Part shown: piece after piece, positions 6,291 through 40,900 of the stretch
Numbering within the stretch: the stretch's first letter is position 1
Layout of the letters: every line of letters starts with the position of its first letter
Origin: Microcaldota archaeon
Lineage (GTDB): Archaea; Micrarchaeota; Micrarchaeia; Anstonellales; Bilamarchaeaceae
NCBI GenBank assembly: GCA_018812625.1
Contig: JAHJDH010000019.1
Coordinates: forward strand, 1-48,401
Reading direction: 5' to 3'
DNA: 48,401 nucleotides
The notes under the pieces: generated by a model
Database searches by the model: none
Seen by the model: the letters and a program-made list of their open reading frames with translations, nothing else
What the model was told of the DNA's origin: nothing
Position numbers and translations under genes: made by a program

Positions 6291-6722
6291 ATGACTAGAA
6301 GAATTCAAAGATCCCAATCAACAGTAACTATCAGGAATATGCCGAGCTATGCTCCTATAATAGAGACTCTAAACAAATTACCGCATGCTCAAAATCATGT
6401 TAGTGATGTTCCAACTTTAGTTAAAATGCTTAAATCTAGCGATTTTTCCTCAAGATCAAAAGCATGCGTTGATATTACTGAACTTTCCAAAAGAGAACCA
6501 GAAAAAGCAAGAGAAACTTTTCCAGCACTTATAGAGGCTTTTGAAAAATGGGGTGGTCTTACCAAATGCATTGTTTCCGAAGCTTTGGTTGCTTTAGGCG
6601 ATGCAAGGGCATTTCCAACTCTTATTCGAGCAGCGAATAATCCCCACCCGGAAACACGGGATCGAATCAGGCTAGCTATAAGTCGAATCCCCGCACTAGA
6701 GCTTAGGGTTATTGAAAGCTGA
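6291..6722 (+). CDS. HEAT-repeat-like protein
   Basis: VPTLVKMLKSSDFSSRSKACVDITELS...TFPALIEAFEKWG...AFPTLIRAANNPHPETRDRIRLAISRI helical repeats; ATG at 6291 follows a TATA-like CATTTATAAATC at 6251-6262. Confidence 0.65.
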   Translation: MTRRIQRSQSTVTIRNMPSYAPIIETLNKLPHAQNHVSDVPTLVKMLKSSDFSSRSKACVDITELSKREPEKARETFPALIEAFEKWGGLTKCIVSEALVALGDARAFPTLIRAANNPHPETRDRIRLAISRIPALELRVIES

Positions 6723-7107
6723 TAATCCCCTTTTCTCCGTCTACTTCTACTATCTGTCCATTTTTTAGAACTGAAAATATGTCCTGATTAGGCTCATCCA
6801 CCATTGGGATTCCAGAAATTATGGCTCCTGTTATGATTATGGGCTCTGCAGCAACATTGATAATCGCAACTGGGGCTTTGCCATTTTTTGCCAATTGCAG
6901 CATAATATATGAACCAACGGTAGATCCTTTGCCATTTGGAAAAACAAGTATCTTGCCAGAAATATTTTGTCCTTCGAGTACATGTCCTTTTTCGATTACA
7001 TTTCCTGTTTCTGGATCAACTCCCCCAAGAAATCCAATTGGTTCTGTGCTAAGAAGTACCTCTCCGCAAGCCTTTCCCTTGGATATACTTCGTGCTTTGA
7101 TTTCCAT
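6709..7107 (-). CDS. Phosphomevalonate dehydratase small subunit (aconitase X swivel domain)
   Basis: MEIKARSISKGKACGEVLLSTEPIGFLGGVDPETGNVIEKGHVLEGQNISGKILVFPNGKGSTVGSYIMLQL: AcnX swivel domain motifs; adjacent to the large subunit. Confidence 0.85.
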   Translation of the reverse strand: MEIKARSISKGKACGEVLLSTEPIGFLGGVDPETGNVIEKGHVLEGQNISGKILVFPNGKGSTVGSYIMLQLAKNGKAPVAIINVAAEPIIITGAIISGIPMVDEPNQDIFSVLKNGQIVEVDGEKGIISFQ

Positions 7108-7111
7108 TTGC

Positions 7112-8287
7112 TCACCTATATAAAATATCCTCAAGATCTCCAAATGCAACTTTCTGCTTACATAGGTTCGGCAGGTATTTTGCTGCCTTTCCAGAATTTG
7201 TTCCGGTTATGCTAAACCCCATTGATTCGAGCGGACAAACTACCATACATGTATCTGCAACGATTTTTCCTCCAGCTGCTTCAATTGGTTTGTTATATCC
7301 CCTTTCTATTGCCAGCTCCTTGATTTTTCTGGAAGTACAAATCCAAAAATCACAAGTTGGTCTTTTAGCACTGACCATCTGTGCAATGTCTTCGATCTCC
7401 TTTATTGATGCATGTGGACAGCCAATTGTAACGAGCTGTGGCTTTTCTTTGCTATCAAGCTGATCTTTGCTTTCTTCGAGTTCTTTTTCTCCAAACACTA
7501 TCTCATCTACGTTTTCCTCTACATTGTATTCCGGAGTGATGTTCTTAATGAAATAAATTGGAACTGATCCTGTTGCAGCCATTGAAGCTCCAAGAACTTT
7601 CAATTGTTCTTCACTTGCAGTTTTAATGCCAGTAAATGCCGGGTTTTTTCTCTTTACTAATTTTCCAACTGCAGAGCCAAGGGCACCAAAATCAGCAGTT
7701 GTCTTCAATTCACATTCAATTTTAACTGCTATTTTTGCAATCCTGTTTTCATCAAGGTGCAATCCATATTCTGGGGTTACTCCGCAAATGGCAGCAGCAA
7801 GGGCAGATGGCCCTCCCTCGCGGTTCGTTCTAGCTCCAAGAACAGAATTTGCAAATGAGACTGCACTTGATTCTGCCCAGGCAATATGTTCTCCTAGTTT
7901 AGGCCGGATTCCAATGAAATATGGAGCACATGTGCATGTTTTCATTATTCCCATTTTGGCATATGCATCAAGAATTTTGATTTGTTTTTTTGCAAAATCT
8001 TCCGGAATTTTCATCTCTCTCCATTGTTCACTGTCCATTCCGGCAGGGTTCAAGAATGTTGGAACAATGGTTTTTGCTCCTTTTTCTACTAAATCCTGCA
8101 AGTACTCTAGCCCTGCCTGACCAATTGTTTTATACGACACTCCGGAAACCTGAGCACTTGTAATTGGGATCATTCTCTTAGCGCCATATATCCTTCCAAG
8201 CGCAACAAGAATTTCCATGGATTGTGAAGCTGCTTTGCTTATTTCACCATCCAACATTTTTTGCTCTTCTTGTGATAGTTCAATCAT
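7112..8287 (-). CDS. Phosphomevalonate dehydratase large subunit (aconitase X catalytic)
   Basis: MIPITSAQVSGVSYKTIGQAGLEYL...VPTFLNPAGMD...CTCAPYF...AESSAVSFANSVLGARTNREGGPSALAAAICG...GCPHAS: AcnX catalytic signatures. Confidence 0.88.
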   Translation of the reverse strand: MIELSQEEQKMLDGEISKAASQSMEILVALGRIYGAKRMIPITSAQVSGVSYKTIGQAGLEYLQDLVEKGAKTIVPTFLNPAGMDSEQWREMKIPEDFAKKQIKILDAYAKMGIMKTCTCAPYFIGIRPKLGEHIAWAESSAVSFANSVLGARTNREGGPSALAAAICGVTPEYGLHLDENRIAKIAVKIECELKTTADFGALGSAVGKLVKRKNPAFTGIKTASEEQLKVLGASMAATGSVPIYFIKNITPEYNVEENVDEIVFGEKELEESKDQLDSKEKPQLVTIGCPHASIKEIEDIAQMVSAKRPTCDFWICTSRKIKELAIERGYNKPIEAAGGKIVADTCMVVCPLESMGFSITGTNSGKAAKYLPNLCKQKVAFGDLEDILYR

Positions 8288-15815: not shown

Positions 15816-17108
15816 TTATAAATAATCTGACGGATCAATTTTCTTCCATCTTGCTTTTTCAAATGCCTTGGCATCGTCAAGCGGTTTTGTTGCATCGAGG
15901 CCCATTTTAGTAGTTTCATACGTGTGTGGATCTGCGCTTGGATCTAATGAAGAGCCTTTTTGCTTTTCTTTGACAACGAGGTCTTTATCTGCCTGGAATC
16001 TTGTTGCAACTGCCCATTCAACTTCCAAAGGCTTATCAACATCAATGTCTTCATCTACAATAACAACATGCTTGAGTGATTTGTGTCCTGCAAATGCAGC
16101 TTCTATTGTGGCCTTTCCATCAGATTCTGCTTTCTTTTTTATTGAAACTACTGCATGAAGCCAGCAACATCCTCCTGGAGAGATATTAACACTTTTACAT
16201 TCGCAAACTTTGCTTACCTCTGTGAAAATTGTTGGTTCTCGTGGCATTCCCATTAATACCTTATGCTCAAGTCCCCCTGGAAGAAGCACATGCCACATTG
16301 CATCATTCCTATGGTACATTTTAGTGAATTTCATTACCTGCTGTTTTCGAACAACATCATATGTCTCTGTCAAATCAATGAATGGCCCTTCATCTGCCAT
16401 CTCCTTTGTGATTCTTCCCTCAAAGGCAAATTCACAATCTGATGGAATCTCAATTCCATTGCTTAGTTTCACTGTTTTTACTTCTGCAAGTCTGTTTGCA
16501 TATTCCAGTTCATCCTGGCCTATCCTAGAAGAAATTGCTGCTGATAATAGCACATTAATAGGAGCGCCGACTATTACTGCAACATCCAGCTCTCCTCCTG
16601 CTCTTTTGATAAATTCCTCCAGATTTCTATGGAGTATTCTCATTACTACCCTATCCTTTTCAATAACCATCATTCTGTGAAATGATAAGTTTCGTCCATA
16701 TTCCTTGTCTTTTGCAATTACTATTGCAGATGCGAGGTATGGCCCACCATCTTTTTCAGCATGAATTGGAATCGGAAGCTTTGAAAGATCAATTTCGCTT
16801 GTGCTATTTTCGAGGATAGGTCCGTTTTCAATAAGCTCTGGTTTTGTTGGATTGTTTATAGCATCAATAAGCTTTGGAATCAGTTCATCCTTTTCAATTC
16901 CAAAATATTCACAAATAAGTTTTCTTGTTGAAAACACATTTCCAACAGCTGGAAAATCTGATTCTTCTACCTCTGGAGCATAAACTGGCTTTCCATCAAG
17001 AACATGCATAAGCCCGGCAAGATCAAGATTTTTTGAAATCTTCTTGTTAACAATTGCCATTCTATTTTCATTTCTTATTTTTTCAATAAATTCTCTGAAT
17101 GTTTTCAT
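15816..17108 (-). CDS. UbiD-family decarboxylase; candidate anhydromevalonate phosphate decarboxylase
   Basis: MKTFREFIEKIRNENRMAIV...KDGGPYLASAIVIAKD...GRNLSFHRMMVI...EGRITKEMADEGPFIDLTETYD; ATGA overlap with UbiX and AcnX subunits nearby. Confidence 0.85.
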   Translation of the reverse strand: MKTFREFIEKIRNENRMAIVNKKISKNLDLAGLMHVLDGKPVYAPEVEESDFPAVGNVFSTRKLICEYFGIEKDELIPKLIDAINNPTKPELIENGPILENSTSEIDLSKLPIPIHAEKDGGPYLASAIVIAKDKEYGRNLSFHRMMVIEKDRVVMRILHRNLEEFIKRAGGELDVAVIVGAPINVLLSAAISSRIGQDELEYANRLAEVKTVKLSNGIEIPSDCEFAFEGRITKEMADEGPFIDLTETYDVVRKQQVMKFTKMYHRNDAMWHVLLPGGLEHKVLMGMPREPTIFTEVSKVCECKSVNISPGGCCWLHAVVSIKKKAESDGKATIEAAFAGHKSLKHVVIVDEDIDVDKPLEVEWAVATRFQADKDLVVKEKQKGSSLDPSADPHTYETTKMGLDATKPLDDAKAFEKARWKKIDPSDYL

Positions 17109-17641
17109 TTTGATCCCCATCTTTTAGATATTTGATGCTTTAGCCCCATCTGGTCAAGCACTCTTGCAATAATAAAATCAATCAGATCATCAACTTTTTT
17201 TGGCTTGCCATAAAAACCAGGAGTAGCTGGCAAAATAATCCCACCTGCCAATGTTACCTTCTCCATATTTTTTATTGTAATTAATGAGTATGGTGTATCT
17301 CGAACAACTAATATGAGTTTTGACCTTTCCTTGAGTGCAACCTCTGCTGCCCTGTTGATAAGATTATTCCCAACCCCATTTGCAATTTCTCCAAGGCTTT
17401 TGAGTGAACATGGTATGAGCACAACCGCATCTGGTGGGTTTGATCCTGATGCATATGGACATGAGAAATCGTTTTCGTGATAATCTGCTTTTGGCAATTT
17501 TGTTCCTTCTGCTTTAGCAACTTCAACAGCACCACTACTCACAACAACTGAAACTTCATTATCTGTCTGTTTTAGTATCTCGACAAGCCGTCTTCCATAC
17601 TCTAGACCAGAAGCTCCAGTAATAGCTACCAAAATACGCAT
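17105..17641 (-). CDS. ubiX: UbiX-family flavin prenyltransferase
   Basis: MRILVAITGASGLEYGRRLVEIL...SGSNPPDAVVLIPCSLKSLGEIANGVGNNLINRAAEVALKERSKLILVVRDTPYSLI. Confidence 0.93.
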   Translation of the reverse strand: MRILVAITGASGLEYGRRLVEILKQTDNEVSVVVSSGAVEVAKAEGTKLPKADYHENDFSCPYASGSNPPDAVVLIPCSLKSLGEIANGVGNNLINRAAEVALKERSKLILVVRDTPYSLITIKNMEKVTLAGGIILPATPGFYGKPKKVDDLIDFIIARVLDQMGLKHQISKRWGSK

Positions 17642-17691: not shown

Positions 17692-18771
17692 TTAGGGTTT
17701 TTCGAATATCATTCCAACCAAATTGTGTTTTTCATCTATTGGAACATCTACATGGCCAATTTGGTTAAATCTTGCTCTAATCCGATTGGCAATTACATCA
17801 ACACTTTTGCGTCTTGCCATACTTTCAATTGCACCTCTCATGGAACTGTCCTTTCCCATAGCAGAAAATACAAATGGATCTTCATCAGCAACGATTAATT
17901 TCGCTCCAGTTTCCATAATTGCTGGAAGCTGCCTCATTACACTATCCAAATCAACATAAGCAGTTGCATTGAAGAGTAAAACTGTTTTGAATTTCCTAAG
18001 TGGCATTCTATCGCCTATACTTTCAGCAACTCCACATAGAAATCTTTTTCCAGTGCCGTTCATGTTCTCAAGAGGATCAATAACCGTTGCCATTTGCCTG
18101 GCCAATCGTATCATATTTGCTGATTCGTCAATACCAACATAATCTGTCATTCCATTCCGATACATCCAATGCAAGCTTCTACCAGTCCCGCAACAAATAT
18201 CAAGCACAGGGGCTCTGATGTATTCTCTTGATGCTCCGAGAACTCTGGACTGCGCCCTATAATGGCCAGTCTTGAGCATATATGAATCAAACTCGCCTGC
18301 TATTTCGTCCCATGATTTCTTTGGAGTGAAAATTAATCCGGTCATATTGTACTGATGAGCTGGAACATCAATTGTCAGTGTTTTGTCCCAGCCAAATGGG
18401 GGTTGCTGCACTATATTATCTACCATAAGTAGCTCACTGAGGTTTCTCAGTATTCTTCTTGCAACTTCTGGCTCTTCTGGAATATCACTTAGGTGTCCAA
18501 AGGCACATACGATGATTTCACTTGCGCCAACCCGTTTCTTTGTTCTTGCAATTTCATCTCGAATTTCTCTAAGATCAAGTACCTCATCTCCTCTCTCTAC
18601 ACAGACAAGAGCAAGAAGCCCATTATCTGATCTGGTATCCGGATTTTCTATCTTAGGTAAATGGGCTAGTTTTGCCACTAACCTTCTTACCTCGGCACTT
18701 CTCTTATTTGGAGGTTGATCCTGTCGTACCTGGATCTGGAGTTTTTTTGCATGGCTACAAAGAATCCTCAA
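17692..18771 (-). CDS. Fusion protein: N-terminal archaeal ThrRS editing-like (DTD-fold) domain plus C-terminal SAM-dependent methyltransferase
   Basis: N-term RILCSHAKKLQIQV...GLLALVCVERGDE...SEIIVCAFGHLSDIPEEPEVARRILRNL...PPFGWDKTLTIDVPAHQ resembles the archaeal ThrRS editing domain; C-term PVLDICCGTGRSLHWMYRNGMTDYVGIDESANMIRLAR is a methyltransferase motif I/II. Apparent TTG start. Confidence 0.72.
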   Translation of the reverse strand: MRILCSHAKKLQIQVRQDQPPNKRSAEVRRLVAKLAHLPKIENPDTRSDNGLLALVCVERGDEVLDLREIRDEIARTKKRVGASEIIVCAFGHLSDIPEEPEVARRILRNLSELLMVDNIVQQPPFGWDKTLTIDVPAHQYNMTGLIFTPKKSWDEIAGEFDSYMLKTGHYRAQSRVLGASREYIRAPVLDICCGTGRSLHWMYRNGMTDYVGIDESANMIRLARQMATVIDPLENMNGTGKRFLCGVAESIGDRMPLRKFKTVLLFNATAYVDLDSVMRQLPAIMETGAKLIVADEDPFVFSAMGKDSSMRGAIESMARRKSVDVIANRIRARFNQIGHVDVPIDEKHNLVGMIFEKP

Positions 18772-18777
18772 TAAATC

Positions 18778-18802
18778 ACATCTATAATGGTTCTATAGAT
18801 GT
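18778..18802. promoter_or_regulatory. Perfect 9-bp inverted repeat immediately upstream of the 17692-18771 gene; candidate operator or hairpin
   Basis: ACATCTATA (18778-18786) - ATGGTTC - TATAGATGT (18794-18802). Confidence 0.45.
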
Positions 18803-18837: not shown

Positions 18838-19599
18838 TCAGCTTCTCAAGACCCTTTCCTTGTCAATTAGCTCCCTCACAACGTCTTTGTGGATGTATCT
18901 TTTGCCACCTACTTTCTCATGTGGGATTCTGCCGCGGTCAAGTCTCCTCTCAAGAGCATTTCTACGAAGTCCGATTCCACTCTTATAAATCTCATCAATC
19001 GTCTGATTGACTGAAAGGTAGTTTCTGTCTATATGAGTGAGTGATTCAACCACTTCTACAGGAATAAGCCGTCTAGTTCCAAATTTAACTGACGGAATTG
19101 TCCCCTTTTCTATTCTTCCTGCAAATGACCTGAAACTGACGTTTCTGTTTTGCTTGGAATATGTTTGAAATGCATCTCTAATACTGTAATATCTGCTTTT
19201 AGTTGCAAGCATGTCTTCGAGGACTTTTTTTGGTATATATCTCTTTCTTCCGACTTTGATAAATGGTATCGATCCCCTCTCTATTCTTCCGCATAATGTA
19301 CGAAGTGATATCCCTATGTCATTTTCGTTCAGGTATCTATGAGTTTCCTTTACACTGAATAATTTATGCTCATCTCCAATGATTTCTCCTGGCCTTTGAA
19401 TTTCACTGTTTTTTGCATCCCGCACAATTCTTCTCATAGTCATTTCAAAATCATCTTCGACAATTTTGCGTTTTTTGTGCATCTGCTCAACATCCATAGT
19501 TGTTAATTGATCAACAGTCTGGCTATCAACTTCAGTTTCAATCATAATACTTTTTCTTCTTACCATATCTTTCCACTCTCTTATTGTTAATTTGTGCAA
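18838..19599 (-). CDS. Putative DNA-binding protein with three tandem excisionase/MerR-like HTH repeats
   Basis: Three repeats (18838-19368): ...ISLRTLCGRIERGSIPFIKVGRKRYIPKKVLEDML / ...VSFRSFAGRIEKGTIPSVKFGTRRLIPVEVVESL / ...LRRNALERRLDRGRIPHEKVGGKRYIHKDVVREL. Confidence 0.7.
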   Translation of the reverse strand: MHKLTIREWKDMVRRKSIMIETEVDSQTVDQLTTMDVEQMHKKRKIVEDDFEMTMRRIVRDAKNSEIQRPGEIIGDEHKLFSVKETHRYLNENDIGISLRTLCGRIERGSIPFIKVGRKRYIPKKVLEDMLATKSRYYSIRDAFQTYSKQNRNVSFRSFAGRIEKGTIPSVKFGTRRLIPVEVVESLTHIDRNYLSVNQTIDEIYKSGIGLRRNALERRLDRGRIPHEKVGGKRYIHKDVVRELIDKERVLRS

Positions 19600-19699: not shown

Positions 19700-20671
19700 A
19701 TGGCATTAGAAGATCTTGATTTGACAGACCGTAAAATCCTTTCAGAACTCGATAAAAATGCCAGAATCAGTTATAGTGACCTTGGAAAAAAAATTCGGGT
19801 TGCCAAGGAGACTGTCAAATACAGAATCAAGAATCTTGAGGATAGGGATATCATCTCGGGCTACCATACTGTGGTGAATCTCTCAAAAGCAGGTTACACG
19901 GTCTACCGTCTTTATTTGCGTCTGCAAAGCACTTCGCCACAAATAGAAAAACAACTTGCAAATTACCTTATAAAATCAAGAAATGTCGTTGTTTTCTATC
20001 GTATTAATGGGCCTTTCAATATAGTGCTTGGAATTCTTGCTCGCAATAACTGGGAATTTGAGCGTTTTTGGAACGATCTCAAAAAGCACTATGGACGTTA
20101 TTTCTCAAAATATCATTTTTCCATGATGACTGAATATTTTGAGTTTTCAAGGCCATATCTCCTAATTTCTAAAGATTCTGAGAAACTTTCTTTTCCAACT
20201 ATGAAACAATCAGAGCCCGAAAATCTTGATGAACTTGATTTCAAACTCCTATATTATCTTTCTGATAATGCGCGTGCATCTCTTGTATCAATTGCAAAAT
20301 ATCTCAATGTCAGTGTTGTCACAGCCAGATATCGCCTAAAAAATCTGATCAGCAAGAAGGTAATTGTTGGCTTTAGGCCAATTTTTAATCTACATGCGCT
20401 TGGTAGGGAATATTTCAAAGTTGATATCTGGTTTAGCAAGTTTGATCGCGCCCAGGAGATAATCCAAACAATCATATCCCACCCGGAAGTAGCATATACT
20501 GAAAGGAGTATCATTTTGAGTGACCTTGAGGTCGATATAGAGACTAAAAACTTCGAAAGCTTCATTGCAATTATGGATTTTTTCCAAGAAAAATTTCCAG
20601 AAGACATCCGAGATTATTCCTATTATTCGCTTGTAAAAAACTACAAGATGAAATATGCGCTTGGTTTCTAG
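19700..20671 (+). CDS. Lrp/AsnC-like transcription regulator with two HTH modules
   Basis: LDLTDRKILSELDKNARISYSDLGKKIRVAKETVKYRIKNLEDRDIISGYHTVVN and LDELDFKLLYYLSDNARASLVSIAKYLNVSVVTARYRLKNLISKKVIVGFRPIFN. Confidence 0.85.
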   Translation: MALEDLDLTDRKILSELDKNARISYSDLGKKIRVAKETVKYRIKNLEDRDIISGYHTVVNLSKAGYTVYRLYLRLQSTSPQIEKQLANYLIKSRNVVVFYRINGPFNIVLGILARNNWEFERFWNDLKKHYGRYFSKYHFSMMTEYFEFSRPYLLISKDSEKLSFPTMKQSEPENLDELDFKLLYYLSDNARASLVSIAKYLNVSVVTARYRLKNLISKKVIVGFRPIFNLHALGREYFKVDIWFSKFDRAQEIIQTIISHPEVAYTERSIILSDLEVDIETKNFESFIAIMDFFQEKFPEDIRDYSYYSLVKNYKMKYALGF

Positions 20672-20713
20672 CACTTCTCAATGTTTTTAAGTGCTTTTAC
20701 TCCATTTCATCTT

Positions 20714-21481
20714 ATGAAGGTAATCAAATTCGGCGGCAGTGCAATAACTGACAAATCTGAATTCAAATGCGCCAATCTCAGCCAAATCAAGAAACTTGCT
20801 CAGGCAATTTCAACTGTTTGGAGGGAAGGAATGCGGGATTTGGTTATTGTTCATGGAGCAGGTTCATTTGGCCATGCACTGGTTCTAAAGCATGGAATAA
20901 ATGATGGAATTACTAATGATTCCCAGCGTCTTGGATTTGCTGATACTCATCAAGCGTGCTCTAGCCTTTCTTCGATTGTAGTTTCTGCCTTAATCGAACA
21001 AAATGTTCCTGCAGTGTCCATTTCCCCAAATTCAATAATAACCCAAAAAAATAAGAGAATCGTGGGTTTTGATACCCGTATCATAAATGAGTATCTGTCC
21101 AAGGGTTATCTTCCTGTTCTCTATGGTGACATGGTTCCTGACCTTGAGCTTGAGGGTTCTGTTTGCTCTGGAGATCAAATAATGTCATACCTTGGAAAAG
21201 ATGCAGACTATCTCATATTCACAACTAATGTTGATGGAGTTCTTGATGGTGAGGGAAACGTTATTGCTGAAATTACTGCTGAGAATTTTTCTCAAATCTC
21301 TGCTCATTTAAAAGAAACAAAAAATGATGTTACTGGTGCCATGAAGGGAAAAATCAACGAGCTTCTGAAAGGGGGCGTTACTTCCTACATCATAAATGCA
21401 GGAAGCCCAGAGCGACTTGTTGATCTTCTCCATGGCAAAGAGGCTATTGGAACTATGGTGAGGGGGAAATCTCACTCATAA
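20714..21481 (+). CDS. Isopentenyl phosphate kinase
   Basis: MKVIKFGGSAITDKSEF...LVIVHGAGSFGHALVLKHGINDG...PVLYGDMVPD...SGDQIMSYLGKDADYLIFTTNVDGVLD...DVTGAMKGKI: IPK-type amino acid kinase family. Confidence 0.92.
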   Translation: MKVIKFGGSAITDKSEFKCANLSQIKKLAQAISTVWREGMRDLVIVHGAGSFGHALVLKHGINDGITNDSQRLGFADTHQACSSLSSIVVSALIEQNVPAVSISPNSIITQKNKRIVGFDTRIINEYLSKGYLPVLYGDMVPDLELEGSVCSGDQIMSYLGKDADYLIFTTNVDGVLDGEGNVIAEITAENFSQISAHLKETKNDVTGAMKGKINELLKGGVTSYIINAGSPERLVDLLHGKEAIGTMVRGKSHS

Positions 21482-24186: not shown

Positions 24187-24972
24187 ATGAGTCCCATGGA
24201 TCCAGAAGTATTAGTGTGTTTGTTTCCTGCCGGATTTATTGGGTTGCTTTTTTTGCTCAGTTCCGTCAAGATAATTATGGAGTATGAACGTGCAGTTCTC
24301 TTTACTTTGGGTAAATACAGCAGAGTACTTAATCCTGGCTTGAATATAATATTCCCAATTATCCAGGGAGTTAGGAAAGTTGATATCAGAATTAAGACAG
24401 TTGATATTCCAAAGCAGGAAGTAATGACTAGCGATAACGTTCCAGTAAGTGTCAATGCTGTTGTCTATATGAGGGTTGAAAATCCTCAAAAAGCAGTTCT
24501 AAAAATCCAGGATTATGTCTATGCAGTAGCGCAATATGGCCAAACTGCTCTTCGAGATGTTATTGGTAACAAAGAACTTGATTTTGTCCTCACACAAAGA
24601 GAGGCCATTGCAAATGAAATCAAGGAGCTTGTTGACCGCGAGACTGAAGACTGGGGTATCGACATTACTGCAATAAAAATCCAGGATATTTCACTTCCAA
24701 TTGACATGAAGAGAATTATGGCAAGGCAAGCTGAGGCAGAGCGTGAAAAGAGGGCCAATATCATCAAAGCAGAAGGTGAAGTTATTTCTTCTGTAAATCT
24801 TAGAAAAGCAGCAGATACTCTTTCACAGTCTCCAGGAGCTATGCATTTGAGAACTTTACAAACAATAGTAGACATTTCATCAGATCCAAGCAATAAAATC
24901 ATCCTTGCAGTTCCGATGGAAGTTCTCAGGGCATTTGAAGGTCTTTCAAAAGTTCCTAAAAAGAAGGCTTAG
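24187..24972 (+). CDS. SPFH/stomatin-like (slipin) membrane protein
   Basis: N-term TM; IIMEYERAVLFTLGKYSRVLNPGLNIIFPIIQGVRKVDIRIKTVDIPKQEVMTSDNVPVSVNAVVYMRV...EAEREKRANIIKAEGE. Confidence 0.93.
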   Translation: MSPMDPEVLVCLFPAGFIGLLFLLSSVKIIMEYERAVLFTLGKYSRVLNPGLNIIFPIIQGVRKVDIRIKTVDIPKQEVMTSDNVPVSVNAVVYMRVENPQKAVLKIQDYVYAVAQYGQTALRDVIGNKELDFVLTQREAIANEIKELVDRETEDWGIDITAIKIQDISLPIDMKRIMARQAEAEREKRANIIKAEGEVISSVNLRKAADTLSQSPGAMHLRTLQTIVDISSDPSNKIILAVPMEVLRAFEGLSKVPKKKA

Positions 24973-25880
24973 TTTGAAACTTTTGTTGCAAAGGAGTCAA
25001 ACCCTTTTTCTTTTATTTTTTCTTCTATTTTTTTAGCATGATTTTCATCTTTTGCAAGTGCAATACAGCAGCCTCCGCCGCCTCCACCTGTTAGCTTGGC
25101 GCCAAGAGCTCCATTTGCAAGTGCAATCTCATTAATTTTGTCATTTCCTTCATCAGAAAGTCCAAGCTCACTAACCAAACTCTGATTTGCATTCATAAGA
25201 TTTCCAATAACATCAATCTGGCCTTTTTCAAGAGCAGTCCGTCCTTTGGAAACAATATCAGTATATTCGTCAACCAGCTGAGCAAATTCTTCTTCATCCT
25301 GGCTCTTAAACTCTTTTACTCTCTCAACCATTTTTGCTGTTTGGCTGTATTTTCCGCTAAATGAAATTACAATATCAAGAGGCTTGTAAAGCTCAAGAAA
25401 ATCAAATTGGTTTTCTTCCGGAGTTTTTCCGCGCCTAAATTCAACAACTCCTCCATGAGTTGCTATAGTGTTATCAATTCCGCTTGGGTTTCCATGAAAT
25501 GCGCCTTCTCCTGCGTATGCGTATTTGTTTATCTCTGCTTTAGTAAGATGAATGTCCTTTTCCTTTGCAAGTGCTTTGACAAGAGCCACGCAAAACGCTG
25601 CCGAAGAACCTAGTCCGCCATATGTTCGAAGGTCTCCAGTTAAATGAACATCATATCTCTCATGAATTCCCATAACTGCAAGAACTCTTTCGATTCCATC
25701 CAAGCTTAGTTTCTCAATAACTTTGTGCTTTGTAATTATCCTGTTTTGGTCTGATTCTTTTAACTCCACAACAACCCCGCTTGAAATCCCACAAGCAATT
25801 GCAGGAGCTCCGTGAACAACAAAATGTTCTCCAAAAAGAATTACCTTTCCCTTCGCTTCTCCCTTATTCATACATGTCAC
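24969..25880 (-). CDS. Mevalonate kinase (GHMP family)
   Basis: KGKVILFGEHFVVHGAPAIACGI, LRTYGGLGSSAAFCVALVKAL, HGNPSGIDNTIATHGG, GALGAKLTGGGGGGCCIAL. Confidence 0.93.
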   Translation of the reverse strand: MTCMNKGEAKGKVILFGEHFVVHGAPAIACGISSGVVVELKESDQNRIITKHKVIEKLSLDGIERVLAVMGIHERYDVHLTGDLRTYGGLGSSAAFCVALVKALAKEKDIHLTKAEINKYAYAGEGAFHGNPSGIDNTIATHGGVVEFRRGKTPEENQFDFLELYKPLDIVISFSGKYSQTAKMVERVKEFKSQDEEEFAQLVDEYTDIVSKGRTALEKGQIDVIGNLMNANQSLVSELGLSDEGNDKINEIALANGALGAKLTGGGGGGCCIALAKDENHAKKIEEKIKEKGFDSFATKVSN

Positions 25881-31736: not shown

Positions 31737-34700
31737 ATGAACAAAATTGTTATTGTATTTGCATTGATGGTCTTGGCGAGTTTTTCTTTTGCTGCTAATG
31801 TCAGCACCTGCCAGGTGATTACCAGTCCTGATACCTATGATCAGACTGTTGATTTGACAGGAGCTCCGAATAACGCTGCTCCAATTGTCGGAACAACATG
31901 TATCCTCATCAATTCTTCTGATGTTATATATGACTGTCACAATTATGACATTACGAATAATGGTACTGTAGGAACAACCCACGGAATTGTATCAAACGGA
32001 CCACTTACTAATGTTACTATAAGAAACTGCGATGGCATCTCTCAATTCACTCGAGGTATATATGTACGCAGGACAAATAACAGCTATGTTCATGATAATG
32101 TTCTCTTCGACAGCAGCGCTCACCACGGATTGATCGTGGATGAGAGTTTCTATGGAAGGTTTGAAGACAACACAGCATATGACAATGCACTATACGGTAT
32201 CTACTCAACCAATTCAGATTACAATAACTTTACTCGTAACAATGCTTCCTTAAATGGGGGTCGTGGATTTTACATTCAGAATTCAGAAAATAATCGTTTT
32301 ATTGACAATATTGCCGACAACAATGTTGTTGATGGTTACCGTGTAACTACAAGTCTTAACAACGTTTTTATCAACAGCAATGCATCAGGACCAAACCAGG
32401 ACTTTGGTTATCATCTTGATGGCGGATCAGGACACAGTATTACTGGCTCTACTGCTCTACTGAATGACATCGGATTCTATGCTGATAATTCCGATTATAA
32501 CGATTTCATTAATGTTAATGGTTCACTTGGAGATGATGGTATTAGGTTTGAGTCATCAATTTGGAATGTTGCTGACCTATCCTACTTCTGCGACAACAAT
32601 GCAAACGGCGTTTATCTTCTGGATTCCCACGCAAGTACTGTTAGTGACACTACATCATGCCGCAATGGAAGAAATGGTTTCAACCTTGAGGATTCCAACA
32701 ACAATGATTTCATTAATGTAAACGGATCAGGAAATAGCATCAATGGTATTAACGCAGTTGACTCGAGTGGAAACGAAATAGATCCATCATATTTCTGTGA
32801 TAATGGCGAGAATGGTATTTATTTCAATAATTCAGACAACACTCTGATTCAGGATTCGTTTGTGTGCAATAATACTGAGGATGGAATGCACATATCCTAC
32901 TCCGATACTGTGACAATAACAAACAACACTGCCTATGATAATGGCGAGGCTGGAATAGAAACCGAAGAGATTCCTTCTGGCCTGAGCGTTACTGACAACA
33001 CTGCTTATGGGAATGTCGACAATGGAATTCATCTATTCAATTTCTTCTATAACACTGCTCCTGCTACGATTACAGGAAACACGGTTTATGGAAATTCATT
33101 CAATGGATTTGAATTTTCTGTTTTGAGAGACAGTATAATATCTGACAATCTTGCTTATGCCAACAGGTATAATGGTTTCAGATGGGCCATAACTCATAAT
33201 AATACTTGGAGCAACAACACTGCACACAGCAGCAACGAGTCATCTGGATTCTTTGGTTCCAATGCAGATGGCAATAACTTTACTGGCCTGACTGCCTATG
33301 GAAATTATGAGCATGGATTCAGGTTTGTAGCTGGTGCTGACAGCAATAATCTTCTTGACAGTGTGTTCTACGACAATACTGAGGCAGGTGTTTACGTGCT
33401 TGACTCAACTCTCAATACTATAACCAATGTGCAGCTCTATGGCAATACTCCTGATCTTTGGATTAGAGGAACTGGAATCGATGTAACTCTATCAAATGTT
33501 ATCTTTGACCTTGATGGCACATTTACCAATTATACAAATCTATCTCTAACTGATAATGTTGCATCTGCATATACAATCGATCATACGACTGAAGCCGTAT
33601 CAGGACCTCCACCTCCGGTTTCCAGATCCTTTGCAGGCAAATTTATCAACATAACAGAAACAGAACCAACAGTATCTATTGATTCTCTTGTGTTCCACTG
33701 GACTGAGGCAGAACTTGCTCCAGATTATCTTGAAGACGGTTTCCGCCTTATGAGATATAACGGAAGCTGGATTATTGTAAACAATACTGCTGATGCAACT
33801 GCAAATGAATTTTCACTAGCATCTGTTGATCTATTCGGAATATTTGCAATAATAGAATATCCTCCTGAGGATGGAGGAAATAATGGAGGATCTGGAGGGG
33901 ATTCAATGTCTGTATCCTTCAGTACATCATGTGAAGAAAATATAGTAAAAGTATCTTCAGGTGGCGCTTTAGCAGGTGCTGAAGTTAAGGTATTTGATAA
34001 GAATACTCTCAGTGATGTCGCTTCTGGATCGACAAACAGCAGCGGCGAATTTGGCTTTATGGGATGCGGCACTGATGTTAAAATAATTGTAACCAAGAGT
34101 GGCTATTCTACAGAGACAGTATACAAATCCCTTGTTGCATGCAGTGGATGCGCACTTGAATGCCTTGTGGATGAGGATTGTGCTGCAAATGAAAAATGCC
34201 ACACCAACATGTGCATTAGCATTGACTGTTCATGCGGAACAATTGTAGATCACTCATGCAATGCATATTCATGCTGTCAGGATTCTCACTGTGAGGCAAA
34301 CCAGGCATGTGTCAACAATGAATGTGTGGATCAGTATGAATGCACTTCTGATGAAGACTGCGAATCCACAGAATCATGCGAGATCGAAGAAGGTACAGAA
34401 GGCGGTTCATGCGAAGAAATCACCGGTGAATGCGGTGAGGCAAAAGATCACGCATGGGTTTCCTATGAATGTGGCAGCGAAGAAAATTGTCCAGACTGTT
34501 CATCTGGCTATTACTGTGATGTTCATGTCTGCAAATCTGACAGGAACCTGAATGGTCCTGATTCCGGATATGTTGGAGAGAATGTTTCCATTACTGCAAC
34601 TGAAGCAGGAGGAGCTTGCATTGACTGCGAAGTCCAGATAAAGTTCCCTGATGGAAAAACAATAACCGGAAGAACTGATAGTAAAGGTAATATGCAATTG

Positions 34701-34916
34701 CCTCTATCCATCGAAGGTCCACACGAAGTTACTCTGCTTAAGGATGGGAACGCTCTTGTGACAATCAAGATTGATGCTCTCACAAGATCAATTGAGCCAG
34801 TTGAAGAACCGGAAACGTCTGTTCTTGATGATGTTGGAGCATTGTTCTTCTGGATGGTCATACTTGCAGTCATTGTCTTTGCATTTGTTATCTACAGGCG
34901 CGGCAAGACCAAATAA
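31737..34916 (+). CDS. Surface protein: right-handed beta-helix, carboxypeptidase-regulatory-like and Cys-rich regions, C-terminal TM anchor
   Basis: Signal peptide MNKIVIVFALMVLASFSFA; many NNTAYDN-type beta-helix repeats; EVKVFDKNTLSDVASGSTNSSGEFGF; Cys-rich region; C-term LFFWMVILAVIVFAFVIYRRGKTK. Confidence 0.87.
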   Translation: MNKIVIVFALMVLASFSFAANVSTCQVITSPDTYDQTVDLTGAPNNAAPIVGTTCILINSSDVIYDCHNYDITNNGTVGTTHGIVSNGPLTNVTIRNCDGISQFTRGIYVRRTNNSYVHDNVLFDSSAHHGLIVDESFYGRFEDNTAYDNALYGIYSTNSDYNNFTRNNASLNGGRGFYIQNSENNRFIDNIADNNVVDGYRVTTSLNNVFINSNASGPNQDFGYHLDGGSGHSITGSTALLNDIGFYADNSDYNDFINVNGSLGDDGIRFESSIWNVADLSYFCDNNANGVYLLDSHASTVSDTTSCRNGRNGFNLEDSNNNDFINVNGSGNSINGINAVDSSGNEIDPSYFCDNGENGIYFNNSDNTLIQDSFVCNNTEDGMHISYSDTVTITNNTAYDNGEAGIETEEIPSGLSVTDNTAYGNVDNGIHLFNFFYNTAPATITGNTVYGNSFNGFEFSVLRDSIISDNLAYANRYNGFRWAITHNNTWSNNTAHSSNESSGFFGSNADGNNFTGLTAYGNYEHGFRFVAGADSNNLLDSVFYDNTEAGVYVLDSTLNTITNVQLYGNTPDLWIRGTGIDVTLSNVIFDLDGTFTNYTNLSLTDNVASAYTIDHTTEAVSGPPPPVSRSFAGKFINITETEPTVSIDSLVFHWTEAELAPDYLEDGFRLMRYNGSWIIVNNTADATANEFSLASVDLFGIFAIIEYPPEDGGNNGGSGGDSMSVSFSTSCEENIVKVSSGGALAGAEVKVFDKNTLSDVASGSTNSSGEFGFMGCGTDVKIIVTKSGYSTETVYKSLVACSGCALECLVDEDCAANEKCHTNMCISIDCSCGTIVDHSCNAYSCCQDSHCEANQACVNNECVDQYECTSDEDCESTESCEIEEGTEGGSCEEITGECGEAKDHAWVSYECGSEENCPDCSSGYYCDVHVCKSDRNLNGPDSGYVGENVSITATEAGGACIDCEVQIKFPDGKTITGRTDSKGNMQLPLSIEGPHEVTLLKDGNALVTIKIDALTRSIEPVEEPETSVLDDVGALFFWMVILAVIVFAFVIYRRGKTK

Positions 34917-34978: not shown

Positions 34979-37900
34979 ATGAGACCTATCTTTGTTTTAG
35001 CAGTATTATTGGCACTTGTTTCAATATCCTTTTCTATCGATGTTTCAAGCTGTCAGGTAATTAATAGTCCTGGAACTTATGATCTGATTAATAGTTTCGG
35101 TGGCAGCACTACTAACTATTGGTATGCTACATACACTACCTGCATTCTGGTTAACAATACTCAGAATGTAATTATTGACTGTCATGGATATTCAGTTAAT
35201 GAAACTGCCGGAACATCTGGTGCACCAATTGCTGTTCGAAACTCATCGAATGTTGTAATCCAGAACTGTAACTTGAATGGGGCAAGAGGTGTAGCATTCA
35301 ATAATGTAAATTATACTAATGTTACTAACAACAATATTTCTGCCAATTGGGCTGTTGTTTCTGCAGGTGGGGGTTATGATTATTATAATCTCTTTGAATA
35401 CAATGACATTGCAGCTGGCACATATGGTTTCTTTTATCCTGTTGCTAATTCGACTATAAGGTACAACAACGTAACTGCTCCGGGCTCTGGAGCATATCTC
35501 TTTAGCGGCAACAATCTCATTACTGACAATTATGCTTACAATTCTCCAAGATGCTATGGCGTAAGTGGGGATGAGCTGAGGCGAAATATTGCTTATAACT
35601 GTAGTGACTCATGCTACTCAATACCATATACAAGCGGCGGGGCCGAATTCATCAACAATACTGCTGATACTTGCGGTGATGGTTTCTCTACTGCCGGGGG
35701 CGAAGGAGCTCTCTTCCAGGACAACATAATAAGAAATTCAAACAATGGTGTTTATCTTGAGACAAGATTCAGCGAGGGTATTGATTATGCGAGATATAAT
35801 GTAATAGATGGAAACCAGATAACAAACTGTGGAGTTGGTATGACTGGTTATTTTGATATACTAAACAACTTCACAGATAATGTGATCACTGGAAGTACGC
35901 TATACGGAATCCAGATGAACAGCTCGAATAATGATTATTTCAGTGGAAATATTGTTACGGGAAGTACGGGTGATGGTGTTGTACTGAACTGGGTAACAAA
36001 CACTGACTTTATTGATGAAACTTCATCAAGCAATGGTGGAGATGGCCTTCATCTTGAGAGCTCAACGAACAATCTTGTTGATCCATCATACTTCTGCAAC
36101 AACACAGGACACGGTATTGCACTCAACTCATCAAGTTCAAATAACATAAACGATTCAGTTGCATGCAACAACACTGGCAGTGGTATGTATCTTGATAACT
36201 CTACACTCAATAACATCACAAACAATACTGTCTACAATAACACCGGTTCTGGAATTTATCTTACTGATTCCAGCAATAACACAATGACACTCAATGACGT
36301 ATATGATAATGCTCAAGTTGGTGTTGGCTTTACTGGTGCTCCAGGGGGTGGAAGCAAATTCAACGACTTGTTTTCCAACAATATATATGGAAATAGGGGT
36401 GGTGTTTCAATTATTTCCTATTTCGCAACTGTCTTTGCTCCATATGTAAGCAACAATAATGTTCTATCAAATAATGAGATTTACGATAACACAGAACATG
36501 GTGTCTACAGCAGGAACAGTGTCTTCCAGATGTCCTTTGATCATCTATATAATAATGGACTTGACATGAACCTGTCTGCACCAAGCGATCCAACAGCATT
36601 TGGCTTTGGATTTATCATGGCGAATGCTATTATCGACAATCCTACAGGAACATACCAGAACTTTACCAACCTGACTATTGGGGATTATGTTGAGGTCGGA
36701 ACTGCGTATACTATTAACTGGAGCAATACTCCAGCAGCTCTTCCTCCAGCATTTGATCAGTTCAAAGGCTTTATTGAAATTACAAATGCTACTCCTGGCG
36801 TAATTATCGATGGCATCCAATGGAAATGGCACGATGGAGAGCTAGCTGGCTTTGATGAAAATAACTTTGAATTATGGGAACATGATGGATCTTGGAGCGA
36901 AGTTGCAAACGCAACTCTCACTACTGGTTCCAACAACATAATAGTAACAAATCTCAGCAGTTTCAGTAGCTTTGGTATATTGCAAAACAATAACTGTCCA
37001 ATAATCTCTGCTCCTGGTTCATATACTCAGGGCGTAGATTACGTTGGTGCTCCAAACTCCGTCTCAATTATTGGCTATCCAACCATAACCAACACATGTA
37101 TCTACATCAATTCATCTGACGTTATCTTTGATTGTGATGGATACACAGTAACTCATGATTCTACTCCGCTCGGAGATGTTGGTATTACTTTCTATCCAGG
37201 TTATGACAACATAACTCTTCTCAATTGCGAAGCATCGCTTTATGAGATTGGTTTATTTGGAATCGGTGTCAATGGCACAACGGTCCAAAACAACACATTC
37301 CATAGTAATTATAACGGTGTTATTCTGCGAGATTCTTATTCGAACATACTGCAAGGCAATGTAGCATACAACAACTCAAATACTGGATTTTTGCACTTTG
37401 ACTTCTATTCAAGCAATTTAGTGGGCAATACAGCGTACAACAATACTGATGGTATTGCAATTAGTACTGCCTCAGGAATCAATGCATCTTTCAATACACT
37501 ACACAGCAATTTGCTAGACGGATTCCTTCTTTCTAATGCAAGCTTCAACAGACTTTCAGACAACGTTGCATACAACAATTCTGATGATGGTTTTGATTTA
37601 GTGTCCTACAATAGTACCTTCGAAGATAATCTTGCATATGACAACAGCAACCACGGATTTCATATCCAGTCTGGTATGGCTCGGTCTATTCCATATTACT
37701 CAGATAACAGTACTGTTATGAACAATACTGCGTATGGGAATACTGGCAACGGTTTCCATTTAACTGGTGATGAAACTAATGCTTTACTTGAAGTTCTTGT
37801 AGTTGATAATGTTGCATATGGTAATGAGAATGGATTTTACCTAAATGAATCTGATTACATCACAATATACAATAATACTGCGCATGATCATTCAGGCGAA

Positions 37901-40900
37901 ATCGGATTCTGGATTCTTCATTCAGAATACAATAACTTCACTGACAATACTGCATATGAAAATGGCGATGGTTTCTCAGTTTATGATGAAGTTAATTATA
38001 CAAATCTCACTGAAAATACTGCGTATAACAATACTCAGGGTATTAGGATTTCTGACAATTCAACTTACATAACTTTAACCAACAATGAAGTCTTTGACAA
38101 TGGTGCTGGAATCGGAATTTTGGATTCTAATATGACCTCAGTTAATGGAGACCATTTATTTGGCAATGCTGTGGATATGTATGTGGCCAATGCTATTGGC
38201 TCTACTCTACAGTTCCAGGTAGATGCAACAAACGTTATCTTTGACAATCCTCTTGGAAACTACACGAACTTTACAAACCTTTCATTTAGCAATGTTCATG
38301 AATCTGATACTGCATATGCTATAACCTGGGATCAGGAACCTGTATCTAATCCGCTTTCTGGAGAAGTTGAATCCTTTGAAAACAAATTTGTTAATATTAG
38401 CAAACGAGCTCCAAGTGAAGCTGTTTCACTTGATAGTGTTATTTGGCATTGGACTGATACTGAATCAGCAGCTTACAATGAAGATTTACTTGAACTTAGA
38501 AAACACAATGCTACTGATGGTTGGGTTGTACTAAACAACACTCCAGATACTGGAGCAAATACTCTAAGTTTAACTGATCTTGATGAATTCAGTACATTTG
38601 CACTTGTTCAGAACAATGGATGTCCGGCTCCAATTACTGCGCCTGGTACATACCAACTCATGGGCCATACTTATGGAGCTTCAAATGATGTTTCTGAAAT
38701 TCCAGAAGGAGATCTTGATCTTGCATGTATCAAGATTGCATCAAATGATGTTGTCTTTGATTGTAATGGATTTAATATTACAAACAATGGAACCAGCAAT
38801 TCAACAGCATTTGCAATCAATGGTTCACTTTCAGTTGACTACACAAACGTAACAATCCAGAACTGTCCGAGCATCACCAATTATTCATTTGGTGCTTATC
38901 TGTATGCATCCACTGAAGATGTTATCGACAATGTTACCATATATGATACGGTACTTGATTCAATTTACTTCCTGAACATGACATACTCCAATGTTACTTC
39001 AAGCACACTCTATAATTCTGCAGAAGGAGACGGTGTCTCTGTAGATCAGGGAAGCAACAATGTTTTCAGAGAAAATATTGCTTATAACAATTATGAGAAC
39101 GGAATTTATCTGGAGGATTCTCCAGACAACCAGGTTCTAAACAACACGGTTTACTTCAACAATGATGTTGGTGTTCTATCAAATGAACCTGGATCTCTAA
39201 GAAATTTGGTTGCAGACAACATTGGTTATGAGAATGGTATTGCATCATTTGCTGCTACTTATGGTGCAAATGACAATGTGTTTACCAGAAACTGGGCTTA
39301 CAATGATACTGGGTTTGCATTCTACGATGTAAATAGGCCGAACGTAACATTCAACAGAGCAGAAAACGGTTCCGGTATGGGAATGTTATTCCTGGCACCT
39401 GATTCGGATGATGTCGGTTATGTATTTGTAAGCGTAGATGACCTGTACGTTGCAAGTAATTATGCATTCAACTACATGCCAAGAAACGAATCTGATGGTT
39501 ATTACTTCTACAATTGTATCGGCGGTACTTTGATAAACAATACACTTATCAGGTCCAACGACCAAGGATTTGATTTCGATAATGTGTACTTCTTCAATGT
39601 TACAAATAACACGGCACAGGATGTCAATGAAGAAGGAGGATTTTCGTTTGATAACTCTACATATAACTTCATTTCAGACAATATTGCCCGTGGAAATGGA
39701 ATTGGATTTATTTTGAATCAGGGAAGTACAATTAATGCTGTCATTGAGAATCAAGCATTGTTCAATAATATGGGTATTCTGCTTGACGGCAATGCATCTG
39801 GAAATTATGTGCTGAACAACACTGCAACAAGCAACCTTGCTGTCGGCTATGTTGCTGCACTATTCTCAGACAACAATCAGTTTATTGGAAATACTGCAAA
39901 CAATGGAACCGGATTCGCATTCTATCTTGTAGATGGTAATATAGTTGAATCAAATACAGTATCCGGTGGATCCGGAGCAGGCATATCATTACTTCTGCCA
40001 GTTCCTATTAACGATACTGGATTTGTTTTCCTAGGAACCAATAATTCCAGAGTATTCAACAACACTGCATATGATTATTCTGGCGGAGTAAATCACGGAT
40101 TCTTTGCTGATGCAAGCAGCGGAAACAACTTCACAATGAATACTGTATATGATGTTGATTCCTCTGGTTTCTGGATGCAACTTTCCGATTCAAACAACTT
40201 TACCAGAAACATTGTGTATAATTCAACTGATACTGGTATGTACGTTGATTCTTCAGAAAACAACCAATTTGTTGAGAATGAAGTATACAATAATGCATTT
40301 GGATTTGGCCTTGCTGCAGGATCTCAATTCAACTACTATATGAACAATACAGCTCATGACAATGATGCTGGTTTCAGGGTAGATAATTCAAACAGCAACA
40401 CATTTACCATAAACCAAGTGTTTGACAACAACCTTGATGGAATATATGTATTCCCGGCATCAAGCAACAATAACTTTACTGAAAACGAAGTGTTCAACAA
40501 TACTCTAAATGGATTCTTCATAGGCTCTTCAGATGGAAATGCACTCGAGATCAACGAGATACACGATAATCTTGGTGCGGGTGTCAACATTTCCGATTCA
40601 AACCTAACTACATTGATGGGAGATCACATCTATAATAACAACCCGGACTTTGTGGTTGATGGAACTGGAATCGATGTTGCATTAGTTGAAGTAGTATTCG
40701 ATAATCCAGTTGGAAACCTGACTAACTTCACAAACCTTTCAGTAACTGACAATGTGAACTCGGCATACTCGATTAACTGGGCAGCTCAACCAAGTGTTGG
40801 TCTTCCGGGTACATCTCCAGGTGCAAGATCCTTCCTTGGTAAATTTGTAAACATAACAAACCTCACCAGCGGAGTTGTAATTGACAATTTGGTCTGGCAT

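Follow-up and report, generated by a model that had tools for sequence, protein, structure and literature searches.

A paralog of the archaeal threonyl-tRNA synthetase editing domain, joined to a methyltransferase and found beside an Lrp/AsnC-type regulator in one family of Micrarchaeota

We identified a gene in a Microcaldota archaeon of the family Bilamarchaeaceae in which a paralog of the archaeal threonyl-tRNA synthetase (ThrRS) editing domain (ED) and a class I SAM methyltransferase form a single polypeptide. The gene lies in a window of 48,401 nucleotides, which is the whole stretch of contig JAHJDH010000019.1 that was analysed; the window's own genome is G000 in our comparative set. Both folds are known, while the editing-domain subfamily, which we label ED-D after its PFGWDK motif, and the fusion architecture are new and so far confined to one family. 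The original prediction knew of no described fusion of this kind, and we likewise found no description of one in the open-access literature. We hypothesize, with a probability of about 0.45, that ED-D is an accessory, amino-acid-controlled aminoacyl-tRNA deacylase of shifted specificity to which a methyltransferase has been added in some species. The gene and its parts are as follows.

17692-18771, minus strand: ED-methyltransferase fusion gene, 359 aa, with a TTG start at 18769-18771, a stop codon at 17692-17694 and full-length homologs in genomes G010 and G020.
18322-18771, minus strand: ThrRS editing-domain-like (DTD fold) half, residues 1-150 (Pfam PF08915, structure model, Foldseek).
18487-18504, minus strand: AFGHLS, residues 90-95; His93 corresponds to PabNTD His83 in a column invariant across a 28-sequence alignment (role from PMC4491819).
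18382-18399, minus strand: PFGWDK, residues 125-130; in alignments Lys130 corresponds to PabNTD Lys121 (kept) and Asp129 to Tyr120 (changed).
17695-18312, minus strand: class I SAM methyltransferase half, residues 154-359 (Pfam Methyltransf_25, Methyltransf_31 and Methyltransf_11; tree placement given below).
18181-18207, minus strand: methyltransferase motif I VLDICCGTG, residues 189-197, the Rossmann glycine-rich motif.

The original prediction gave the coordinates of the open reading frame exactly and left its strand unstated. The plus strand of 17692-18771 is full of stops and the minus strand is a single open frame of 359 aa, in which all the editing-domain and methyltransferase motifs it had quoted were located (AFGHLS, PFGWDK, VLDICCGTG and, at residues 212-217, VGIDES). 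The TTG start is sound because homologs open with an M-[KR]-x-L first strand at the same aligned position. An assembly or frameshift artefact is excluded by the presence of the fusion in three genomes, and since G010 and G020 carry it too, it is not an assembly joint. The protein lacks a synthetase core, as had been predicted, and the same architecture is found in both homologs.

Pfam tRNA-Thr_ED (PF08915) matches residues 40-139 at E = 2.8e-15, its 57 bits clearing the cut-off of 30.2, and reaches 76 and 38.7 bits in the G010 and G020 fusions; Methyltransf_25 matches residues 189-281 above its curated cut-off (E = 2.4e-9). The top two NCBIfam models, ThrRS and 'Ser-tRNA(Thr) hydrolase', both score far below their cut-offs, the latter (NF011500) at 46.4 versus 362. 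A phmmer search of the PDB matched the ThrRS editing domain 4rrf at 1.1e-5. AlphaFold2 modelled the full fusion from 11 sequences at pLDDT 79 and pTM 0.71, and with this model Foldseek matched class I methyltransferases as well as ThrRS editing domains. Modelled alone with 28 sequences, the ED half reached pLDDT 90.6; its 23 top PDB matches were all archaeal ThrRS editing domains (TMt 0.77–0.87), followed by DTD structures (about 0.55–0.69). Because of this model and these matches the fold originally called for the N-terminus was right, and the half has a genuine ThrRS-ED/DTD-type fold. The Rossmann methyltransferase proposed for the C-terminal half is likewise borne out by Pfam, motif I and Foldseek.

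With the N-terminal editing domain of archaeal ThrRS (PF08915; PabNTD, ApNTD, MjNTD), ED-D has in common the fold (TMt up to 0.87), the starting methionine strand, the HLS and FGW-K motifs, and the invariant His and Lys. Unlike that domain, ED-D is unattached to a synthetase, forms a separate clade, has Asp for Tyr120 and no Glu134, and bears an extra basic segment of roughly 20–30 residues near its N-terminus. DTD has the same overall fold as ED-D, but a family-level sequence match is absent.

A survey of 59 relatives for fused and standalone ED-D showed that the fusion recurs in G010, of the same genus, as a 365-aa protein that is 43% identical over its entire length and has an ATG at the corresponding position, and in diverged form in G020, of another genus (327 aa, 28% identity). 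Standalone ED-D proteins of 139–178 aa (139 where sequence is missing) are encoded in G029, G009, G014, G004, and G019. Carriers thus amount to 8 of the 43 genomes of the window's family, three with fusions and five with standalone forms. Nothing comparable was detected in ~350 other genomes searched outside the family, and a search of 395 relatives yielded no further ED-D proteins. An ED-D profile run against 301 phylum genomes scored seven ED-D proteins at 195–261 bits and ThrRS editing domains at no more than 79 bits, and found no ED-D beyond the window's family. In a phylogenetic tree, seven ED-D proteins form a single clade (100/94); the split of all eight from the whole set of ThrRS editing domains is weakly supported (45/81) owing to the long branch of G020. 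The N-terminal half belongs to a paralogous subfamily of archaeal ThrRS editing domains that is specific to this lineage. The three methyltransferase halves also cluster together (91/89), their nearest relative by path being an unfused 224-aa methyltransferase from G017, and a single fusion event followed by methyltransferase loss or spread is possible.

Several other candidates were rejected. A search of IMG/VR with conserved peptide patterns detected no ED-D relative and plasmids gave weak methyltransferase matches only, so we discarded a viral or plasmid origin. A defence system was set aside as PADLOC returned generic methyltransferase and HTH matches only. The sole contig-database relative, from a Bacilli MAG and matching residues 153-227 only, is an ordinary methyltransferase, and a G017 protein beside an Lrp ortholog, considered as a diverged ED-D, gave no match.

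Functional work on the Pyrococcus abyssi domain provides the frame for comparing active sites. Ahmad et al. (PMC4491819) found that the catalytic group is the tRNA 2'-OH and that Lys121 is needed to position the catalytic water; H83A is inactive in P. abyssi, with moderate activity remaining in A. pernix. In the same study the Y120A and E134A mutants retained both editing and Ser/Thr discrimination, both residues being dispensable, and the authors asked why this Tyr and Glu stay conserved. We aligned 28 editing domains from ED-D and ThrRS proteins. Pocket columns common to both groups are His93 (PabNTD His83), Phe-Gly-Trp 126-128, Lys130 (Lys121), and also His139. The His83 and Lys121 equivalents are kept in all eight ED-D proteins and the adenosine-binding FGW in seven of the eight. 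At the Tyr120 position seven have Asp and G020 has Pro, and Glu134 is lost in all eight, though the aligned ThrRS of the phylum all retain it. The most diverged fusion, that of G020, has FGIPK in place of FGWDK, with Trp and Asp gone, and has also lost the His of GHP.

By these residues ED-D retains the requirements for editing and is altered where the amino acid is touched. Asp129 may take over the amino-group contact made across the dimer by Glu134. A natural clade that has retained precisely the pair of residues that activity requires and dropped precisely the dispensable pair, with the housekeeping copy still present, makes the question of why Tyr and Glu are conserved directly testable with natural proteins. 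Many ThrRS of the wider phylum have Asn or Thr at the Tyr120 position (FGWNK, FGWTK) and always keep Glu134, so conservation of Tyr120 among archaea is not strict.

The original prediction proposed checking whether the genome's ThrRS lacks its own editing domain. It does not: the G000 ThrRS, on another contig, carries one (142 bits), and so does the ThrRS of each of the other seven carriers. ED-D is therefore an addition rather than a replacement, and compensation for a non-editing ThrRS is excluded. Substitution for a missing D-aminoacyl-tRNA deacylase is excluded as well, because G000 and 38 of the 43 family genomes encode DTD2; DTD (PF02580) had no match in any of the 43, G000 included. The trans-editing factor originally proposed stays plausible given the retained His83 and Lys121 equivalents and the position of the G009 gene, 104 bp upstream of the ThrRS gene on the same strand, but not as a stand-in for a missing ThrRS editing domain. 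The ThrRS of G009 is itself unusual (locus L036 3842-6076, G009:C9). Its 745 aa comprise an N-terminal archaeal ED, ~300 residues that match no Pfam family, and a class II core, and it is possibly a chimera in which an archaeal ED precedes a bacterial-type ThrRS whose own, second editing domain has decayed. ThrRS lengths of 740–810 aa are found in several relatives.

The following features surround the fusion gene in the window.

19700-20671, plus strand: two-HTH Lrp/AsnC-type regulator, a conserved neighbour divergent from the fusion, with ATG at 19700 (Pfam, orthologs, tree).
18838-19599, minus strand: gene for a 253-aa protein containing two or more HTH_17/excisionase-like repeats, which separates the fusion from the Lrp gene (Pfam, PHROGs).
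18778-18802, no strand: perfect inverted repeat of 25 bp (9-bp arms, 7-bp loop), 7–31 bases upstream of the start codon, a candidate operator.
17105-17641, minus strand: co-oriented UbiX-type flavoprotein gene, 50 bp downstream of the fusion (Pfam; identical order in G010).
15816-17120, minus strand: UbiD-type decarboxylase, downstream on the same strand (Pfam; identical order in G010).

At all six loci with intact context (G000, G010, G029, G009, G019, G020), ED-D lies within one gene of an oppositely transcribed two-HTH Lrp/AsnC-type regulator. The family encodes many such regulators, and these six fall in one 11-member clade (100/98), which also occurs away from ED-D in G017 and as a second copy in G019. 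Two carriers have no visible adjacent Lrp owing to contig edges or rearrangement, G014 being cut by a contig edge and G004 having none on the contig side present. This linkage, which the original prediction did not see, is the strongest of the genomic signals; it is an association rather than a demonstration of control, and it points to a regulated or accessory function. The 253-aa HTH_17 protein intervenes in G000 only, being absent from that position in G010, and is possibly derived from a mobile element. For the inverted repeat, arms of at least 9 bp arose in 26 of 2000 mononucleotide shuffles, and palindromes of different sequence, also candidate operators, occur where the genes of G029 and G020 start.

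The usual place of this extra ED copy beside an amino-acid-type regulator suggests an enzyme for proofreading or detoxification that can be switched on and off, as opposed to routine housekeeping editing. More broadly, it suggests that small-genome archaea can turn paralogs of editing domains into regulated accessory factors. By analogy, CtdA offers a precedent for an induced standalone protein resembling an editing domain: this canavanyl-tRNA deacylase is upregulated by a toxic amino-acid analogue and protects against it (PMC10018355). The comparison concerns only how the two might work, since CtdA is bacterial, has a B3/4 fold and a substrate that are unrelated, and carries no methyltransferase.

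We hypothesize that ED-D is probably still a working aminoacyl-tRNA deacylase in which Lys130 would place the water and the A76 2'-OH would be the catalyst, with altered handling of the amino acid following from the change of Tyr120 to Asp and the loss of Glu134. It would act in trans as an accessory factor under the neighbouring amino-acid-type Lrp regulator and clear a particular mischarged or non-standard aminoacyl-tRNA. In the window species and two others, a methyltransferase of an Lrp/AsnC-linked family would have been joined to ED-D, and it probably modifies the bound tRNA or the amino acid after its release. Against a deacylase, the loss of Tyr120 and Glu134 could reflect a new ligand rather than editing.

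One alternative, which we consider unlikely, is that the ED half docks the acceptor end of a tRNA, perhaps tRNA-Thr, and hands it to the methyltransferase for modification with no deacylation. In Trm11, a THUMP domain plays a comparable part in tRNA delivery. An N-terminal RNA-handling domain followed by a C-terminal class I methyltransferase is the known layout of Trm11/TrmN-type tRNA-modification enzymes, the retained FGW segment would suit such a role, and archaeal Trm11 (5e71) ranked first when the full model was searched with Foldseek, with CmoM and METTL6 also present. However, the Trm11 match reflects the general methyltransferase fold (TMq 0.35), the N-terminal fold of Trm11/TrmN-type enzymes is THUMP, and the methyltransferase here matches the generic Methyltransf_25 and Methyltransf_11. 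No tRNA-methyltransferase family or THUMP domain scored above cut-off in the fusion with Pfam or NCBIfam, a weak 24-bit PHROG match being the only hit. Furthermore, five genomes have ED-D and no attached methyltransferase, so ED-D has a role independent of methylation, and members of the methyltransferase family mostly have other N-termini or none.

That variability may instead indicate a repurposed sensor, in which the ED half binds a small ligand (an amino acid, an aminoacyl-adenosine, or SAM/SAH through its adenosine moiety) and gates a methyltransferase linked to an Lrp that senses the same metabolite. Within the methyltransferase family the N-terminal region ranges from ED to a weak, sub-cut-off receiver-like match in G008 to none in G017; a receiver-domain N-terminus as such was dropped because the match stayed below cut-off. 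The methyltransferase family has an independent link to such regulators: an Lrp/AsnC gene lies within 1 kb of 23 of its 38 members (deduplicated by genome), against about 3.4% expected by chance from the 12 such genes in G000 (nominal binomial P 1.5e-24, a value that ignores relatedness). Transcription of the nearest unfused methyltransferase gene (G017:C40) and of a two-HTH Lrp gene runs in divergent directions, the two genes being 96 bp apart. Nonetheless, conservation of the editing His and Lys in every ED-D goes beyond what a ligand pocket would need, and in the standalone forms there is no methyltransferase for the ED to gate, leaving this reading as doubtful as docking.

Freestanding crenarchaeal ThrRS editing domains complement a non-editing ThrRS. 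Korencic 2004 is cited for them in PMC2943090, and NF011500 models them. ED-D resembles them in being a separate polypeptide with an editing domain and no aminoacylation core, and it might provide plain backup Ser-tRNA(Thr) editing with a methyltransferase attached by accident. The shared ThrRS-ED fold, the activity and Ser/Thr discrimination of Y120A and E134A, and the G009 gene beside ThrRS are all compatible with such a role. It is nevertheless improbable: every carrier's ThrRS already has an editing domain, in contrast to the crenarchaeal case, and the methyltransferase half is preserved in three genomes. The clearing of Ser-tRNA(Thr) that the original prediction attached to this fold is also not the natural default here, because the serine-contacting Tyr120 and Glu134, the latter present in every aligned ThrRS of the phylum, are gone across the clade.

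It is more improbable again that the fusion methylates the aminoacyl group of a charged tRNA, or the amino acid on its release, under Lrp control. The editing pocket would hold the aminoacyl-tRNA 3' end and the methyltransferase would act there, which if true would represent a novel way of modifying or detoxifying aminoacyl-tRNA. Under the deacylase reading that we prefer, the fusion still adds an editing-domain/methyltransferase architecture.

Elsewhere in the window (6709-8287, 15816-17641, 20681-21481, 24969-25880), Pfam identifies large and small subunits of aconitase X, the UbiD and UbiX types, an isopentenyl phosphate kinase-like protein of the amino-acid-kinase family, and a mevalonate kinase-like GHMP kinase. 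We take these genes to be most of the archaeal modified mevalonate pathway, and the UbiX-type gene is possibly in an operon with the fusion. Together with the archaeal-type ThrRS and the small genomes, the aconitase X, UbiD/UbiX and isopentenyl phosphate kinase-like genes point to an archaeal (DPANN-like) origin. We give almost no credence to a role for the fusion in that pathway as a possible operon partner of UbiX and UbiD amid these genes: although the orders ED-methyltransferase, UbiX, UbiD and Lrp, kinase are conserved in G000 and G010, these are the closest fusion pair, so the order may be inherited, and the ED-D genes of G009, G029, G019, and G020 are located elsewhere, yet Lrp stays with them.

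Class I methyltransferases and small AsnC/Lrp genes also occur together at loci distributed across the lineage. At L041, L042, L043, L136, L137, and L139 (in G008, G011, G000:C31, G015, G010, and G009), one or two methyltransferases of 290–570 aa with variable N-termini alternate with AsnC/Lrp genes. These loci lie near agmatinase-like or agmatine deiminase-like and N-carbamoylputrescine amidase-like genes and an HPr-kinase-like gene, which suggests that Lrp-linked methyltransferases are tied to polyamine metabolism.

Two large surface-type proteins of 1059 and 2375 aa are encoded in the window at 31737-34916 and 34979-42106. Both have repeats in the style of N-T-A-Y-x-N, like those of a right-handed beta-helix, with cysteine-rich tails and a C-terminal membrane anchor; they are probably repeat surface proteins.
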